Source: Prevotella sp.
GTDB taxonomy: Bacteria > Bacteroidota > Bacteroidia > Bacteroidales > Bacteroidaceae
Direction of reading: 5' to 3'
Length of the DNA: 44,515 nt
Assembly (NCBI GenBank): GCA_017428925.1
Contig: JAFRPY010000041.1
Location: forward strand, 1-44,515
Both the position numbers and the translations under genes were made by a program. The notes under the pieces are model-generated. The model made no database searches. It was not told the origin of the DNA and worked only from the letters and a program-made list of their open reading frames with translations. The first letter of the stretch is position 1. Each line of letters starts with the position of its first letter. Positions 3,574 to 8,495 of the stretch are shown here, in pieces.

Positions 3574-3666
3574 AAGTTACGAAAAGTCGCACAAATAAAC
3601 CCTCGGCAAGCCCGAAAATCGGATGCCGAGGGTGAAAGTCTCAACTTAGGTTAAGAGTTTTTGGGA
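3574..3666. repeat. 93-bp direct repeat, left copy (partner 7618-7710)
   Basis: Nearly identical, without indels, to 7618-7710 in the same orientation. It contains the terminator hairpin 3600-3632 and the last codons of the oxidoreductase gene. The two copies bracket about 4 kb holding the oxidoreductase, radical SAM, lipoprotein and sigma-barrel genes. Confidence 0.85.
3600..3632 (-). terminator. Intrinsic terminator after the oxidoreductase gene
   Basis: CCCTCGGCA (3600-3608) and TGCCGAGGG (3624-3632) form a perfect 9-bp stem with a small inner CCGA/TCGG stem. On the minus strand it is followed by TTTATTTG, and it lies 13 bases past the stop codon at 3646. Confidence 0.75.
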
Positions 3667-4731
3667 AGGAATGTTATTATGGTGCTCCAATGGAGTACTA
3701 TCTATGGATTGGAGAGCCTGTAACAATTCGTATGTACCTCTAACTGACATTAAGCCTGTGGTGACTTCAGCTTTTCCTTTTTCAACCTGGCTGATGAACG
3801 CTTCTATTTCGCTGTAGTAGCCCTGAGTGTAGACTTGGTTGTTCGCCAGAATGGGCGTGAAATTGTTGCGCTGAAAGAGGTATTCTACGGTGCGATTTTT
3901 CGTGCATAGTTTTTCTGCGGGGATGCCGAGAATGTTGGTGGGATTGGGCGTAAAGGTTAGTTCTTCCATTTGAGAGAGCCGGTAAATGCTGGAATGGGTG
4001 CAGACTTTCAGGGATTCTTCAGCAGTAGTCCAGGTGTATGCAGTTGAAAGTTCAAGGGTACCGACGATGTGCGGATGTTGGAGCATAAGGATGTAGGAGT
4101 CCTTGGTGACCTGTCGGCAGGCGAGGATTTCTGGCCTTCCGAACAGAAAACAAACGAGGTCGAGGGGATGGATGTAGAGATCGAGCAAAGCATTGCCTTC
4201 GGGATAGGTTCCAGTGAGATAATTCAGGTCGTAGTTGATAAGATGTTCTTTGCGGAGACGTTGCTTCAGTAGTTGAACGGCCGGGGCGTAGCGTTTCTGC
4301 AGTCCTGCCATTGCGACGGGCGAGCCATATTGCTGCTGTATGGCAATGAGCGTGTCGAGTTCTCCAAGTGTCTGGCAGGGTGGTTTCTCAATGAAAAGAG
4401 ACTTACCACTTTGCAGAAGTTGCGAGGCGATGGAGAAATGGGCCGACGGGGAGGCAGAAACGAATACGCCTTTAATGGATTCGTCTTTCAGAATCTCGTC
4501 AAGCGATGTCGTGCCTTTTACGCTTGGATATTTCCGCTCTATCAGCTTCGCCTTGCGCTCCGACGTGACGCAGATGTATTTCAAGGGAACGCCGAGGTAG
4601 TGCAATACTGGATAGAGATTGGTCAGCGAGTGTTGGCCCATACCCACGAAGGCATATTGATATTGGTACGTTTGGCGCAGGAAGCGCTCCGTGCGCATAC
4701 GCTTGAATCGGTTGATAAGTTCTTTTATCAT
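3646..4731 (-). CDS. Gfo/Idh/MocA-family oxidoreductase, 361 aa
   Basis: The start is the ATG at 4731, which overlaps the stop of the upstream gene as ATGA (4731-4728), so the two are translationally coupled; a longer frame exists but would run through the upstream gene. The N-terminal Rossmann segment YAFVGMGQHS, the FVSASPSAHF strand and the IEKPP motif are those of NAD(P)-dependent sugar/inositol dehydrogenases of the Gfo/Idh/MocA family. The C-terminal half is the alpha/beta substrate domain. The substrate cannot be read. Pairing with a SPASM-type radical SAM gene suggests modification of a sugar or envelope polymer, but that partner is now deleted internally. A strong terminator follows. 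Confidence 0.85.
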   Translation of the reverse strand: MIKELINRFKRMRTERFLRQTYQYQYAFVGMGQHSLTNLYPVLHYLGVPLKYICVTSERKAKLIERKYPSVKGTTSLDEILKDESIKGVFVSASPSAHFSIASQLLQSGKSLFIEKPPCQTLGELDTLIAIQQQYGSPVAMAGLQKRYAPAVQLLKQRLRKEHLINYDLNYLTGTYPEGNALLDLYIHPLDLVCFLFGRPEILACRQVTKDSYILMLQHPHIVGTLELSTAYTWTTAEESLKVCTHSSIYRLSQMEELTFTPNPTNILGIPAEKLCTKNRTVEYLFQRNNFTPILANNQVYTQGYYSEIEAFISQVEKGKAEVTTGLMSVRGTYELLQALQSIDSTPLEHHNNIPSQKLLT

Positions 4732-5129
4732 TGTATTGCTTTTAGATGATTTCGATATGTTTGCTTGGGGTCTGCCGTCCATTGATACGGGCCGTAGAAC
4801 TTTTCGACGAGCCACTTGGGCAGCAGCCGCTCGAAGTTGCGCACAAGGATGATGTCGTATTTGCGGTGGAAATTAATCCAGCACTCGTTGCAATGACGGG
4901 AGTAGCGACATTGGGTCTGACAAGTCGATGCTCCGTTGAAAATCTCGTCAAGCGATTGCTCATGGATATTCCCCACAGGTCGTTTCTGCCAGATGTTGCA
5001 GTGCTTGCACTTCGACTGACAGAGCGTAGTCGAGTAAATCATCAATTGCGATAGCCACTTGTGTCTTGGTCGCATCATGTTGTTCAGATAGAGCAGCCCG
5101 TTATAGGCATAATCATAAATACTATACAT
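4728..5129 (-). pseudogene. Radical SAM/SPASM protein with the core deleted (133 aa left)
   Basis: Residues 37-44 carry the radical SAM cluster motif CQSKCKHC. At about residue 52 the sequence jumps straight to GNIHEQSLDEIFN and the Cys-rich CQTQCRYSRHCNECW, which belongs to the C-terminal SPASM part of such proteins. Families of this layout are usually 300-400 residues, so about 200 residues of the TIM-barrel core (SAM-binding and active-site strands) are missing, while the frame remains open. It is most likely an in-frame internal deletion and enzymatically dead; a minimal two-cluster ferredoxin-like protein is a remote alternative. The stop overlaps the start of the oxidoreductase gene. 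A 17-bp inverted repeat sits just upstream. Confidence 0.75.
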
Positions 5130-5201: not shown

Positions 5202-5753
5202 TTATTTCCTCAGTTTGCCTTTACTTTCCAAGTATTTCGTGAAGAGTTCCCAATGCACGGCGATCTTCAGGATGTTGGCCTTGACTGCATCGGAAACGAT
5301 GAACTGAAGGGGGTAGCAATCGTAGAGGTAGTAGTGGCCATCGTCGATTACCTCGCCGTCAATCTTCCCGCAGCAGAGTACAAGGTCGTCGAACATTTGG
5401 CTACAGATAAGACTGACGTGGGTGGCTCCACCGGAAAAGAGGTGTTTGCCACCGATATAGAAATCAATTCCGGCAAGCAACGGGATTTTTTCACGCAGCG
5501 GTTCCATCGTGTCACGGAAACGTATCTCACGGGTGGTGACGTTGAACCATTCAATATCATCCTCGGTAAAGAGGATTCCTGCGTCAGAGCGCGTTTCCGG
5601 CTGACCGATGCCACAGGCGTAGAGCGTACCTTCTGACACGGGACAAGTGGTAAAAGGTTTTTCGGGTTCGTTACCGTCGAGACTGCAGGCAGTCATCGTC
5701 ATGCTGGCTATGGCTATCGCCATCATCCAAGCGAAGGGTCTGTTGTGTTTCAT
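5202..5753 (-). CDS. Putative lipoprotein of unknown function, 183 aa
   Basis: MKHNRPFAWMMAIAIASMTM is a lipoprotein signal ending in the lipobox TACS (Cys about 23). The remainder is a small, mostly beta-strand-like globular domain with several cysteines (FTTCPVSEGTLYACGIG, SLICSQMFDDLVLCCG) and no motif I can name. It starts 70 bases after the sigma-barrel fusion gene and on the same strand, so the two are probably co-transcribed. By position it could be a surface or periplasmic partner of the barrel, which is inference only. Confidence 0.75.
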   Translation of the reverse strand: MKHNRPFAWMMAIAIASMTMTACSLDGNEPEKPFTTCPVSEGTLYACGIGQPETRSDAGILFTEDDIEWFNVTTREIRFRDTMEPLREKIPLLAGIDFYIGGKHLFSGGATHVSLICSQMFDDLVLCCGKIDGEVIDDGHYYLYDCYPLQFIVSDAVKANILKIAVHWELFTKYLESKGKLRK

Positions 5754-5823
5754 ATTCTTCAGAGTTTAAAATATTAGTCTCTCTATTTATATAGTCCGCC
5801 CGACATGGAAAAGACGGCATGGA

Positions 5824-7530
5824 TTACCAAGTAAATCTGATGCCTAATGGCAAAGAGAACGTGAACGGATGCACCGTGCGGTAGTTCTCGATGTCACTGC
5901 CCGTCGGGATGTAGTATTGCAGGCTTGGCTCGGCGAACAGCCCGATATTGGGTGTGAAATTATATTGCAGACCGAGACCTGTGCCTACTGACCACTGCCA
6001 TGGAGCGCGGAGTGTGGTCTTGTCGGTGGTTTCATACTGGCCATTCACGAAGTAGTCGGAACGTAGTGTTGACGATACGGGGATTTCCATCGTCAGACCT
6101 GCGCTGCTGTAGAGGCTCCACATCTTTTTAGCAAATATGTGGTAGATGCCCTTTACGGGGATGCCGATATAATGGATGGTTTGCTGTTCATTGATACTAT
6201 TGCCATTTGAACCCATCTCGAAGTCGGAGGTCAGACGATTGTAGCCCAGTCCCGTCTCTATGGCCCAGCGGTTGTCGAGCTTGTATTTCAGTGCCAGCGA
6301 CCACGTGATGGGCATGCGGTGATGGCTTGTGCGCAGGATCTTGTCGTTGCCCGGCTGGTTGGCATTGTTCAGGGCAATGCGCCTGATGATGCTGCATGTC
6401 CTGTCGCTCACGGCATCAGGATGGACGGCCAGATAGAGAGCGTAATCCGACCAGTTGTCGATACTGCTCGGTACGACTGGACTGGGGCCGGGACCTGGAA
6501 GCGACTGCGTGGCTGACGGCGCGGGCCGGTAAGTGTAAGGCTGGTTGTAGCGACTCTGTTCAGACAACTGCCCGGCGTATGCAAGTTCTACCGACCACTT
6601 TTGCCCGTTGCGGCTTCTGCCGGATGGCTTTTCAGAGAATAAATCGGCAATATCGTAGTGAAGCTGTTCTATCTTGCGTAACGTTTCTGTCGTGTCTGCC
6701 GCTATGGTGTCCGAGATAGCTTGCTCTTGTGCCATCATGTTTGACAGGGTGTCAGACGTAATAGAATCAATAGCCTGGACGATGACAGGCTGGAGCGTGT
6801 CAATTGGGGCATGATGTATGGGTATATGTACAATCAAAGGCTCCTGCGGCTGTTCCGTTAATGGCTCATTTGTATGTGGCTTTTGCTCTTGTGTATCATT
6901 CTGCTTGGCAATGGCTGGCTTCTCTTCGACAGCAGTATCACCTTTCCTGAGTAAAAAGAATGTGAGAGGCATGAGTAGCAACAGAAGCATGGCAGCCCAA
7001 TATTGCTGCATCATCTTGCGTAGTATCTTCTTGGCCCGCGCCAATTGCGACGATGAAGAATGAGGTTCGATACCCAGCATGGCGGCAATCTCTTTGTGTG
7101 ATAAACCATCAAAAACAGACAGCCGGAACACCTTGCCGTATCCCTCTGGCAACTTATCTATCAGCTTCAACACTTCTTCCAATGGAACACCTTTTATAGT
7201 GGTCTCTTCATTGGAGGTCACTAAAGTCTCCGCCTCCTCCAAAGGAACTAATGACAGACTATCCAAATGGTCTTTATATTTCGAGGCCACGTTTCGCGTA
7301 ATTGACATCATCCACGATTCTGCCTTTCGATTGTCTCGCAGTCGGTCAAACGAAGTGAAGATAATCACAAAAGCATCGTGCAATACATCGTCCACGACCT
7401 GTTCGTCACTGACATAACGACGGCATACACCCCTCATCCTATGGGCGTATGCCTTGTACAGTTCTCCGAGCGCATCTGCATCGCCCTGTCTGCACCGTTC
7501 TATCAGCCGCATAACTTCCATCGAAAACAT
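5824..7530 (-). CDS. ECF sigma factor fused to a membrane helix and an outer-membrane beta-barrel, 568 aa
   Basis: One continuous frame holds three parts. Residues about 8-88 are sigma-70 region 2 (ELYKAYAHRMRGVCRRYV, then DDVLHDAFVIIF and NRKAESWMMSITRN); about 118-172 is region 4 with the helix-turn-helix (LPEGYGKVFRLSVFDGLSHK, EIAAMLGIEPHS). Residues about 177-195 (YWAAMLLLLLMPLTFFLLR) are a membrane helix, with a basic end. A polar, Pro/Gln/Thr-rich linker (about 200-305) leads to a barrel of roughly 255 residues (KWSVELAYAG onward) that ends in LPLGIRFTW, the terminal aromatic typical of outer-membrane barrels. ECF factors are normally about 180 residues, with membrane partners encoded separately. 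Topology implied: sigma domain in the cytoplasm, linker through the periplasm, barrel in the outer membrane, unless it is processed. The lipoprotein gene follows directly. Starts at 7530 or 7521 are both possible. Confidence 0.85.
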   Translation of the reverse strand: MFSMEVMRLIERCRQGDADALGELYKAYAHRMRGVCRRYVSDEQVVDDVLHDAFVIIFTSFDRLRDNRKAESWMMSITRNVASKYKDHLDSLSLVPLEEAETLVTSNEETTIKGVPLEEVLKLIDKLPEGYGKVFRLSVFDGLSHKEIAAMLGIEPHSSSSQLARAKKILRKMMQQYWAAMLLLLLMPLTFFLLRKGDTAVEEKPAIAKQNDTQEQKPHTNEPLTEQPQEPLIVHIPIHHAPIDTLQPVIVQAIDSITSDTLSNMMAQEQAISDTIAADTTETLRKIEQLHYDIADLFSEKPSGRSRNGQKWSVELAYAGQLSEQSRYNQPYTYRPAPSATQSLPGPGPSPVVPSSIDNWSDYALYLAVHPDAVSDRTCSIIRRIALNNANQPGNDKILRTSHHRMPITWSLALKYKLDNRWAIETGLGYNRLTSDFEMGSNGNSINEQQTIHYIGIPVKGIYHIFAKKMWSLYSSAGLTMEIPVSSTLRSDYFVNGQYETTDKTTLRAPWQWSVGTGLGLQYNFTPNIGLFAEPSLQYYIPTGSDIENYRTVHPFTFSLPLGIRFTW

Positions 7531-7617
7531 AACGTCTCTATCTATTATGTCCGATAATTACGAAAAGACTGCATGAGAATAGTAACTTTTTTCATCGAAT
7601 GCCTCATTTTGCCAACG

Positions 7618-7770: not shown

Positions 7771-7778
7771 TAACTTTG
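7771..7778 (+). promoter_or_regulatory. Promoter -7 element for the Abi-like gene
   Basis: TAACTTTG, 24 bases before the ATG at 7803. No clear TTTG 19-21 bases upstream. The leader would be about 20 nt, with no room for a structured RNA like that of the AbiF genes. Confidence 0.55.
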
Positions 7779-7802
7779 CACCCAAACTTAAAAACTCACA
7801 AC

Positions 7803-8495
7803 ATGAGATACAACGAATTTGAAGAATTATTCTCAGCCAGGAGAATGCGGAAATATCTTGCCGCCTGCAATAACGATACGAGGCGAGCAATGACGCTTTA
7901 TCGTTATAACCTGAAGCTGTCGCAGGAATTGTTTACCATAATCAGTTGCTTTGAGGTAGTTCTTCGCAACCGTATAGACAAGCAGATGGTTGCCCACCTT
8001 GGCAATGATTGGTTACGGGATGCTATACTTCCTAGTGGTTCGCTGTATTATGACCGTCGTGTGGAGAATACGCGAAAGATTATTGAAAAAGCGTACAATG
8101 GTTTGATGAGGGAGGGTAACTATTCTCACTCGAAACTGTTGTCGGAGATGGAGTTTGGCGTATGGAAATATATGTTCTCAAATGCTGCATACGCCTTGAT
8201 GGGACAAAGGCTACTTCGCATTTTTCCCAACAAGCCGAGATCGTCTCGCCAGCATAGATATGACAATACGTACATCTTTCAAGAGTTGGACTACATCAAT
8301 AAACTGCGAAATAGGATTGCCCATCATGAGCCTATATGTTTTGCCCGTCCTAATGCGGTTACTGATACCTCATACGTTCTCAACCAATATGCTCGCATGA
8401 TGAAACTCTTTAATTGGATGGGTGTTGACGGGCCATCTTTGGTATACGGATTGGATCATGTGGCCTTTGTGAGTGGAAAAGTGATGTGCATTTAA
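7803..8495 (+). CDS. Abi family HEPN protein, single-motif type, 230 aa
   Basis: ATG at 7803 was chosen; an in-frame TTG at 7776 would overlap the promoter. The segment FTIISCFEVVLRNRIDKQMV (44-63) and the later KLRNRIAHHEPI, with R169-N-R-I-A-H174 as the HEPN RxxxxH motif, place it in the broad Abi_2-related group of HEPN proteins, of a smaller subgroup than the two AbiF genes in this window. No signal peptide or membrane segment. Likely role by family: RNase-type phage defence or toxin. It has no visible antitoxin gene or structured leader. It sits alone between the 93-bp repeat and a promoter-hairpin unit. Confidence 0.75.
   Translation: MRYNEFEELFSARRMRKYLAACNNDTRRAMTLYRYNLKLSQELFTIISCFEVVLRNRIDKQMVAHLGNDWLRDAILPSGSLYYDRRVENTRKIIEKAYNGLMREGNYSHSKLLSEMEFGVWKYMFSNAAYALMGQRLLRIFPNKPRSSRQHRYDNTYIFQELDYINKLRNRIAHHEPICFARPNAVTDTSYVLNQYARMMKLFNWMGVDGPSLVYGLDHVAFVSGKVMCI

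Follow-up and report, generated by a model that had tools for sequence, protein, structure and literature searches.

Dma3 of Bacteroides thetaiotaomicron was reportedly first described by Pardue et al. in PNAS in 2024. According to the available parts of a recent account of the Dma family, its members combine an anti-sigma domain, a helix, a disordered tether and a barrel, and ECF21 sigma genes lie adjacent to their genes (PMC13088901, J Bacteriol 2026). In the same text, Dma3 (bt_2778-2779) is stated to carry a sigma domain at its own N-terminus, to have no adjacent ECF21 gene and to be almost uncharacterised as of 2026 (PMC13088901). Deletion of dma3 did not undo the hypervesiculation of B. 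thetaiotaomicron dma1 and dma2 mutants, and the parts of the paper available to us give neither a phenotype of dma3 on its own nor the promoter and targets of Dma3 (PMC13088901); a literature search for BT_2779 found nothing relevant. The single-chain layout is, on the available text, already known from Dma3 of this gut Bacteroides, which overturns two statements of the original prediction made for the DNA studied here, namely that sigma factor and outer-membrane sensor are separate chains in the known ECF systems and that the layout lacked a characterised example (PMC13088901). Among systems with two chains, a split pair of Phocaeicola vulgatus, named ecfO-reo (PMC13114119, available in part), has been tied to toxin-caused envelope stress and a longer O-antigen, and the excerpts available describe the pair with its barrel-bearing anti-sigma factor as responding to envelope stress (PMC9308784). 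In Pseudomonas putida, according to a source available in part, the sigma factor IutY (ECF243) is fused to a membrane extension and is freed by Prc and RseP (PMC8999054).

The window analysed here, by which we mean the whole stretch of 44,515 nucleotides, is from a Prevotella-type bacterium whose habitat is probably the ruminant gut. It contains a gene with the following parts:

5824..7530, minus strand: fused sigma/barrel gene (translation, Pfam, conservation across relatives)
7003..7530, minus strand: sigma-70 regions 2 and 4, residues 1-176 (Pfam, NCBIfam, ECF chains in the PDB)
6940..6999, minus strand: single membrane helix, residues about 178-197, directly after sigma region 4 (hydropathy)
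6607..6939, minus strand: polar linker, residues about 198-308 (translation; dN/dS 0.33)
5827..6606, minus strand: predicted outer-membrane beta-barrel region, residues about 309-568 (PF13568; C-terminal G-x-x-F-x-W)

Translation of the minus strand gave an uninterrupted frame of 568 codons plus stop, and the plus-strand frame of 5824-7530 is not open but contains many stops. Pfam matches exceeded the curated cut-offs for Sigma70_r2 (residues 24-85, 38.8 bits, cut-off 24), Sigma70_r4_2 (residues 118-169, 50.5 bits, cut-off 25.7) and OMP_b-brl_2 (PF13568, residues 407-529, 43.8 bits, cut-off 27). ECF sigma chains in the PDB matched the sigma part of the family profile, and no PDB sequence matched the barrel part at E 0.01. 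The membrane helix contains a proline (Pro188), the polar linker is presumed to be periplasmic, and the chain ends in GIRFTW with Trp568 as its last residue, the G-x-x-F-x-W form of which we take to be a beta-signal. Assignment to the ECF sigma factors is indicated by regions 2 and 4 and by an own-promoter element 5' of the gene. Judged from its sequence, the gene product is an ECF sigma factor, a helix, a linker and a predicted outer-membrane barrel in a single chain; the predicted succession of sigma regions 2 and 4, helix, linker of ~105 residues, barrel of ~255 residues and aromatic end was correct in its lengths, and the frame is open as had been claimed. Like Dma3, which is known to us from its description, the window protein has an N-terminal sigma domain in the same chain, and the single helix, long polar tether and C-terminal barrel of the Dma family can be recognized in its sequence. 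The N-terminal cytoplasmic anti-sigma segment of that family is missing from it, as is an adjacent, separate ECF21-type sigma gene, the sigma domain being encoded in the same frame; a search with the whole protein found no second match on the contig.

The three-part order was sought in relatives and, the window included, sigma and barrel share one open frame in 135 distinct sequences, where distinct means non-identical and many are closely related. This count extends to locus L237, leaves out cut second copies from the loci of the promoter pattern search and accepts a gene as fused only if its frame was translated through or its match had no internal stop; split pairs can mimic the fused length across a stop, as in G237 (623 = 187 + 1 + 435). 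One or both halves were matched in 172 of 301 genomes of the family (E 1e-15). With the host genome included in both figures, 144 of 200 same-genus genomes were matched at 1e-30, and in at least 59 of the 200 a single match spanned 96% or more of the model; an in-frame TGA is present in one of these 59. From an order-level draw of 393 genomes, nine passed E 1e-60, five of which belong to other families, four of these with an uninterrupted fused frame and one (G963) with a broken one. A relative is encoded by 462 of 517 candidate stretches, the best 80 of which were kept. Those relatives that bear a name are metagenome-assembled genomes of Prevotella type, many of them apparently from ruminant guts, and metagenome-assembled genomes make up most of the relatives altogether. 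Tryptophan is the last residue in 132 of the 135 fused sequences, and an equal number, 132, have last six residues of the form G..[hydrophobic or T].[FW]. Median dN/dS was 0.11 for the sigma domain (38 pairs), 0.16 for the helix (29 pairs), 0.33 for the linker (40 pairs) and 0.14 for the barrel (42 pairs), so that the linker is the least constrained part; the low values at the sigma and barrel ends point to purifying selection at both.

Interrupted or start-disrupted fused copies were seen in single genomes (L025, L072/L218, L187, L189, L230, L275), and at least two of the 135 sequences (L072 and L230) have a disrupted start. The fused gene and the lipoprotein gene of L270 (G1017, a genome placed in another family) are very close to those of Prevotella, which would reflect either horizontal transfer or contamination. 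In four pairs of loci (L077/L127, L078/L082, L064/L066 and L067/L090) the barrel halves are 96-100% identical per 100 bases, apart from one 100-base window at 76% in L067/L090, and the sigma halves are 70 to 100% identical; in three of these pairs the near-identity extends into the lipoprotein gene or right across it. Barrel cassettes may have been exchanged, or the metagenome assemblies may be chimeric.

These few damaged copies, together with the draft state of the host genome (3.56 Mb, 122 contigs, completeness 85%), are what could be said for a fusion of two genes by sequencing or assembly, or for a decaying gene. Such an origin is hardly credible in view of 135 distinct fused frames, the at least 59 of 200 same-genus genomes in which one match spans 96% or more of the model and the low dN/dS at both ends of the gene.

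For comparison with split Das/Dma-type systems, 48 pairs were collected, three of which (L025, L187 and L189) are broken fused copies and were removed, leaving 45. One such pair is present in the host genome itself, on another contig, with 38% identity to the fused protein in the sigma part and 35% in the barrel (E 5e-24 for the barrels); a whole-protein search of the draft contigs found no second fused match in this genome. Hydropathy placed the helix start within -4 to +4 residues of the sigma end in the 135 fused sequences, whereas in the 45 split barrel proteins the helix is preceded by 46-64 residues, counted from the first Met, which often include a YSEP.P..W..LE stretch. The fused class therefore has no room for an anti-sigma segment, and neither does the window protein have room between region 4 and the helix for a fused anti-sigma domain of the IutY type; as far as sequence can tell, the fused class is without the anti-sigma segment of split Dma-type proteins. 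The C-termini differ as well: none of the 45 split proteins has a final W, and in 33 the last residue is Y or K. A helix proline, which would promote cleavage, was found in 113 of 135 fused versus 4 of 45 split proteins, but in only 5 of 21 members of the Bacteroides-like fused branch, and it may therefore reflect descent in one branch.

In the sigma tree, the fused rows (61, of which 12 are from loci L238 and up, with some cut copies) formed one clade with support 100/100, apart from the split Das/Dma-type pairs, and the fused proteins of Bacteroides-like genomes share this clade with the window's. Fused sigma domains clustered with Das-type split sigmas and apart from five other sigma factors of the genome. 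A barrel tree made by a quick method from 49 fused and 44 split rows, with the 12 later-locus rows and one short split row excluded, likewise gave one fused clade (SH-aLRT 91). The simplest reading is a single fusion event, followed by inheritance by several genera. Orthologues consistently split at the sigma/helix boundary, which by its own terms would have refuted the original prediction, were not what we found: the fused sigma domains form one clade apart from the split pairs, and the latter have an anti-sigma segment in addition. A split-gene artefact was rejected, as relatives keep the fusion and the fused sigma domains form one clade.

In 14 of the 45 split pairs (for example L046-L049 and L055-L057) the barrel frame is in register past the sigma stop or stops, with one or two stops between the frames. 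The idea that the fused gene is a split pair minus its stop codon was rejected as a full account because the anti-sigma segment is also absent and the fused class is one clade.

A promoter-like element is present at two positions of the window:

7537..7573, minus strand: promoter-like element of the fused gene, TGCAGTCTTTT-N9-CGGAC..ATA.ATAGA
5782..5819, minus strand: the same element 5' of the lipoprotein gene, TGCCGTCTTTT-N10-CGGAC..ATA.ATAGA

The form common to both genes is GTCTTTTC, a spacer of 8 or 9, CGGAC and then ATA.ATAGA; the element of the fused gene can be shortened to TGCAGTCTTTT-N-GGAC. The pattern matched twice in the window versus 0.00 expected from 100 shuffles, and a stricter pattern also had two matches in the whole draft genome, before the fused and lipoprotein genes only, with none for the reversed control, although more sites may exist because the draft is at 85% completeness. 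Because the pattern was derived from the two sites of the window, independent support was sought in relatives. A core match of the TGCAGT..TT type was present in 120 of 129 distinct upstream regions of fused genes, window included (0.4% in mononucleotide shuffles), and absent from nine. With a looser pattern, 20 genomes with fused genes yielded 36 matches in 19 genomes versus 3 in the control; G063, in which the fused gene is present, had no site by this pattern. Thirty of the 36 sites could be assigned to a locus: the gene that follows is a fused gene at 13, a lipoprotein homologue at 11, a radical SAM gene at two (one of them past a lipoprotein remnant) and an unrelated gene at four. The predicted target set in the host genome is very small and local.

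Upstream regions of split das-type genes carry a related TGCAGT core in 32 of 45 cases. The seventh base is A in 30 of these 32 (TGCAGTA), versus C in 96% of the fused matches. This similarity to the element of the split genes, and the derivation of the pattern from the window's own two sites, would be compatible with the TGCAGTC element belonging to another regulator, the fused protein having other targets. We consider this improbable, given that the TGCAGTC element accompanies the fused class across genera and families and that its seventh base sets it apart from the split form; the one-base difference between C and A is as expected if each sigma factor reads its own promoter. The C form, otherwise a mark of the fused class, was also observed upstream of the split pairs L153 and L154, which may share promoters with fused relatives.

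Downstream of the fused gene, three genes follow on the same strand:

5202..5753, minus strand: lipoprotein gene, 183 aa, lipobox ..MTAC (ORF); predicted partner and target
4728..5129, minus strand: shortened radical SAM/SPASM gene, 133 aa; probable next operon gene
3646..4815, minus strand: Gfo/Idh/MocA-type oxidoreductase (Pfam PF01408); probable further operon gene

The lipoprotein ORF begins 70 bases downstream of the fused gene, exactly as predicted, and its product matched no Pfam family. A homologue lies within 1.5 kb downstream in 76 of 131 distinct loci (those with at least 700 bases downstream), and the 62 distinct loci with at least 2.5 kb downstream include 44 with the lipoprotein, 47 with the radical SAM/SPASM protein and 43 with the Gfo/Idh/MocA-type protein. 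In other branches the next gene codes for a SAM methyltransferase, a family-2 glycosyltransferase, an acyltransferase, a radical SAM protein or another secreted protein. Among 29 sampled loci, 20 show a TGC.GT-type element no more than 1.5 kb downstream (within 170 bases in 19 of them), and nine have none in that interval, including those with an acyltransferase (L182) or a methyltransferase (L179 and L180). From their families, we infer that the neighbours are surface or glycan modification genes, which they resemble.

The suggestion that the lipoprotein is a partner of the fused protein has gained support from the shared promoter element and from the adjacency in 76 of 131 loci. The same two observations, the lipoprotein being the most frequent immediate neighbour in the loci examined and its gene sharing the element with the fused gene, could be read to mean that a separate factor, either this lipoprotein or an unlinked anti-sigma factor, controls the sigma domain and that the barrel only positions it. 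We give this reading little credence: none of the four neighbours scanned with Pfam matched an anti-sigma family, and the neighbouring gene is not the same in all branches (methyltransferase, radical SAM, glycosyltransferase, acyltransferase), so that no single partner is conserved. Since another gene lies downstream in many relatives, the system can do without the lipoprotein.

Two further observations concern the surroundings of the gene. The radical SAM/SPASM gene of the window has 133 codons versus 353 in L072, with both ends present and the middle missing, the result either of a genuine deletion or of faulty assembly. The divergent neighbour (7776-8495, plus strand) encodes an Abi_2-type protein (PF07751), of a family tied to phage abortive infection; the flanks of the 135 fused genes, 0 to 4 kb long, showed no upstream homologue of it.

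Taken as a whole, the evidence makes it fairly probable that the fused protein is a self-contained envelope sensor of the Dma3 type, the sigma domain of which is freed, probably by proteolysis, to drive transcription of the fused gene itself and of the operon beside it. Signal, off state and release are parts of the reading that we infer. With the barrel correctly placed in the outer membrane, the sigma domain would be held inactive at the inner membrane; disturbance of the outer membrane or of the barrel would lead to cutting of the linker, after which an RseP-type protease could cleave the helix and free the sigma domain. Transcription by the freed domain would then yield more of the fused protein along with the products of the neighbouring operon; the latter would repair or modify the surface, and newly made full-length protein would reset the switch. 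Proteolytic release is plausible by analogy with IutY. The host genome encodes two M50-type proteases, and at least one was found in 14 of 14 control genomes, so that these proteases show only that the cleavage step is possible. The dma3 deletion result, in which the hypervesiculation persisted, counts against a sensor of this kind.

The main rival to release is a sigma domain that works while tethered: it would bind polymerase and promoter at the membrane, as membrane-bound one-component regulators do, the barrel altering its activity by pulling on it via the linker and proteolysis playing no part. The fused class has no anti-sigma segment to hold the sigma domain off, and a tiny set of predicted targets beside its own gene would suit a membrane-bound regulator. 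In ECF holoenzymes, sigma region 4 reaches the -35 element and the polymerase, both of which would need to stay within its reach if the chain were anchored right behind it; moreover, the linker as the least constrained part of the protein is ill-suited to act as a mechanical rod. We therefore regard a permanently tethered sigma domain as unlikely and retain the self-contained sensor with release as the preferred reading. More speculatively, the released-sigma sensor might be a one-protein gauge of outer-membrane assembly, in which, there being no anti-sigma domain, nothing but proper insertion of the protein's own barrel keeps the sigma domain off, and each chain with a failed barrel is cut to give an active sigma factor for no more than its own gene and one neighbouring surface-modifying operon; the exchangeable neighbours would then be alternative outputs on the same private promoter. 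This extension is put forward tentatively.

Overall, the interpretation first given to this gene is partly supported. What is new here, as far as can be read from the sequences, is the promoter element, the small predicted target set and the missing anti-sigma segment of the fused class; the literature searched, in the parts available, contained no report of the promoter or targets of this class. Dma3 being the one described example that we found, a promoter-like element and predicted targets make a little-studied class testable, and together with the missing segment they render the question of a barrel-held sigma factor directly accessible to experiment. If release does follow barrel failure, a signal would pass from outer membrane to transcription by a strikingly short path.

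The outer-membrane receptor of the IutY system is a separate protein. According to the available parts of the source, IutY resembles the fused class as a sigma factor with a membrane-spanning extension, but the extension is an anti-sigma factor and serves iron cell-surface signalling (PMC8999054). The same excerpts describe ECF48, ECF52 and ECF53 as sigma factors with C-terminal membrane helices, SCO4117 having an extracytoplasmic part as well; unlike the fused class, these are actinobacterial, have a zinc-finger anti-sigma domain and lack an outer-membrane barrel (PMC8999054). Closer are Das1/Dma1, Das2/Dma2 and EcfO/Reo, which from the available texts share the ECF sigma factor, helix, disordered tether and C-terminal barrel (PMC13088901, PMC9308784, PMC13114119), and most of the split pairs sampled here carry a related promoter element. 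In the Das/Dma and EcfO/Reo systems, as described in those texts, sigma factor and barrel are two chains linked via a cytoplasmic anti-sigma segment, whereas the fused class is one chain. Dma3 is named a member of the anti-sigma family in the available text, in contrast to the fused class, which appears to be without the anti-sigma segment. It is counted there in the dual membrane-spanning family and has a two-gene locus, as does the window system; compared by its description only, Dma3 is like the fused protein in that the sigma domain forms the N-terminal part of the one protein, and no ECF21 gene stands beside it (PMC13088901).
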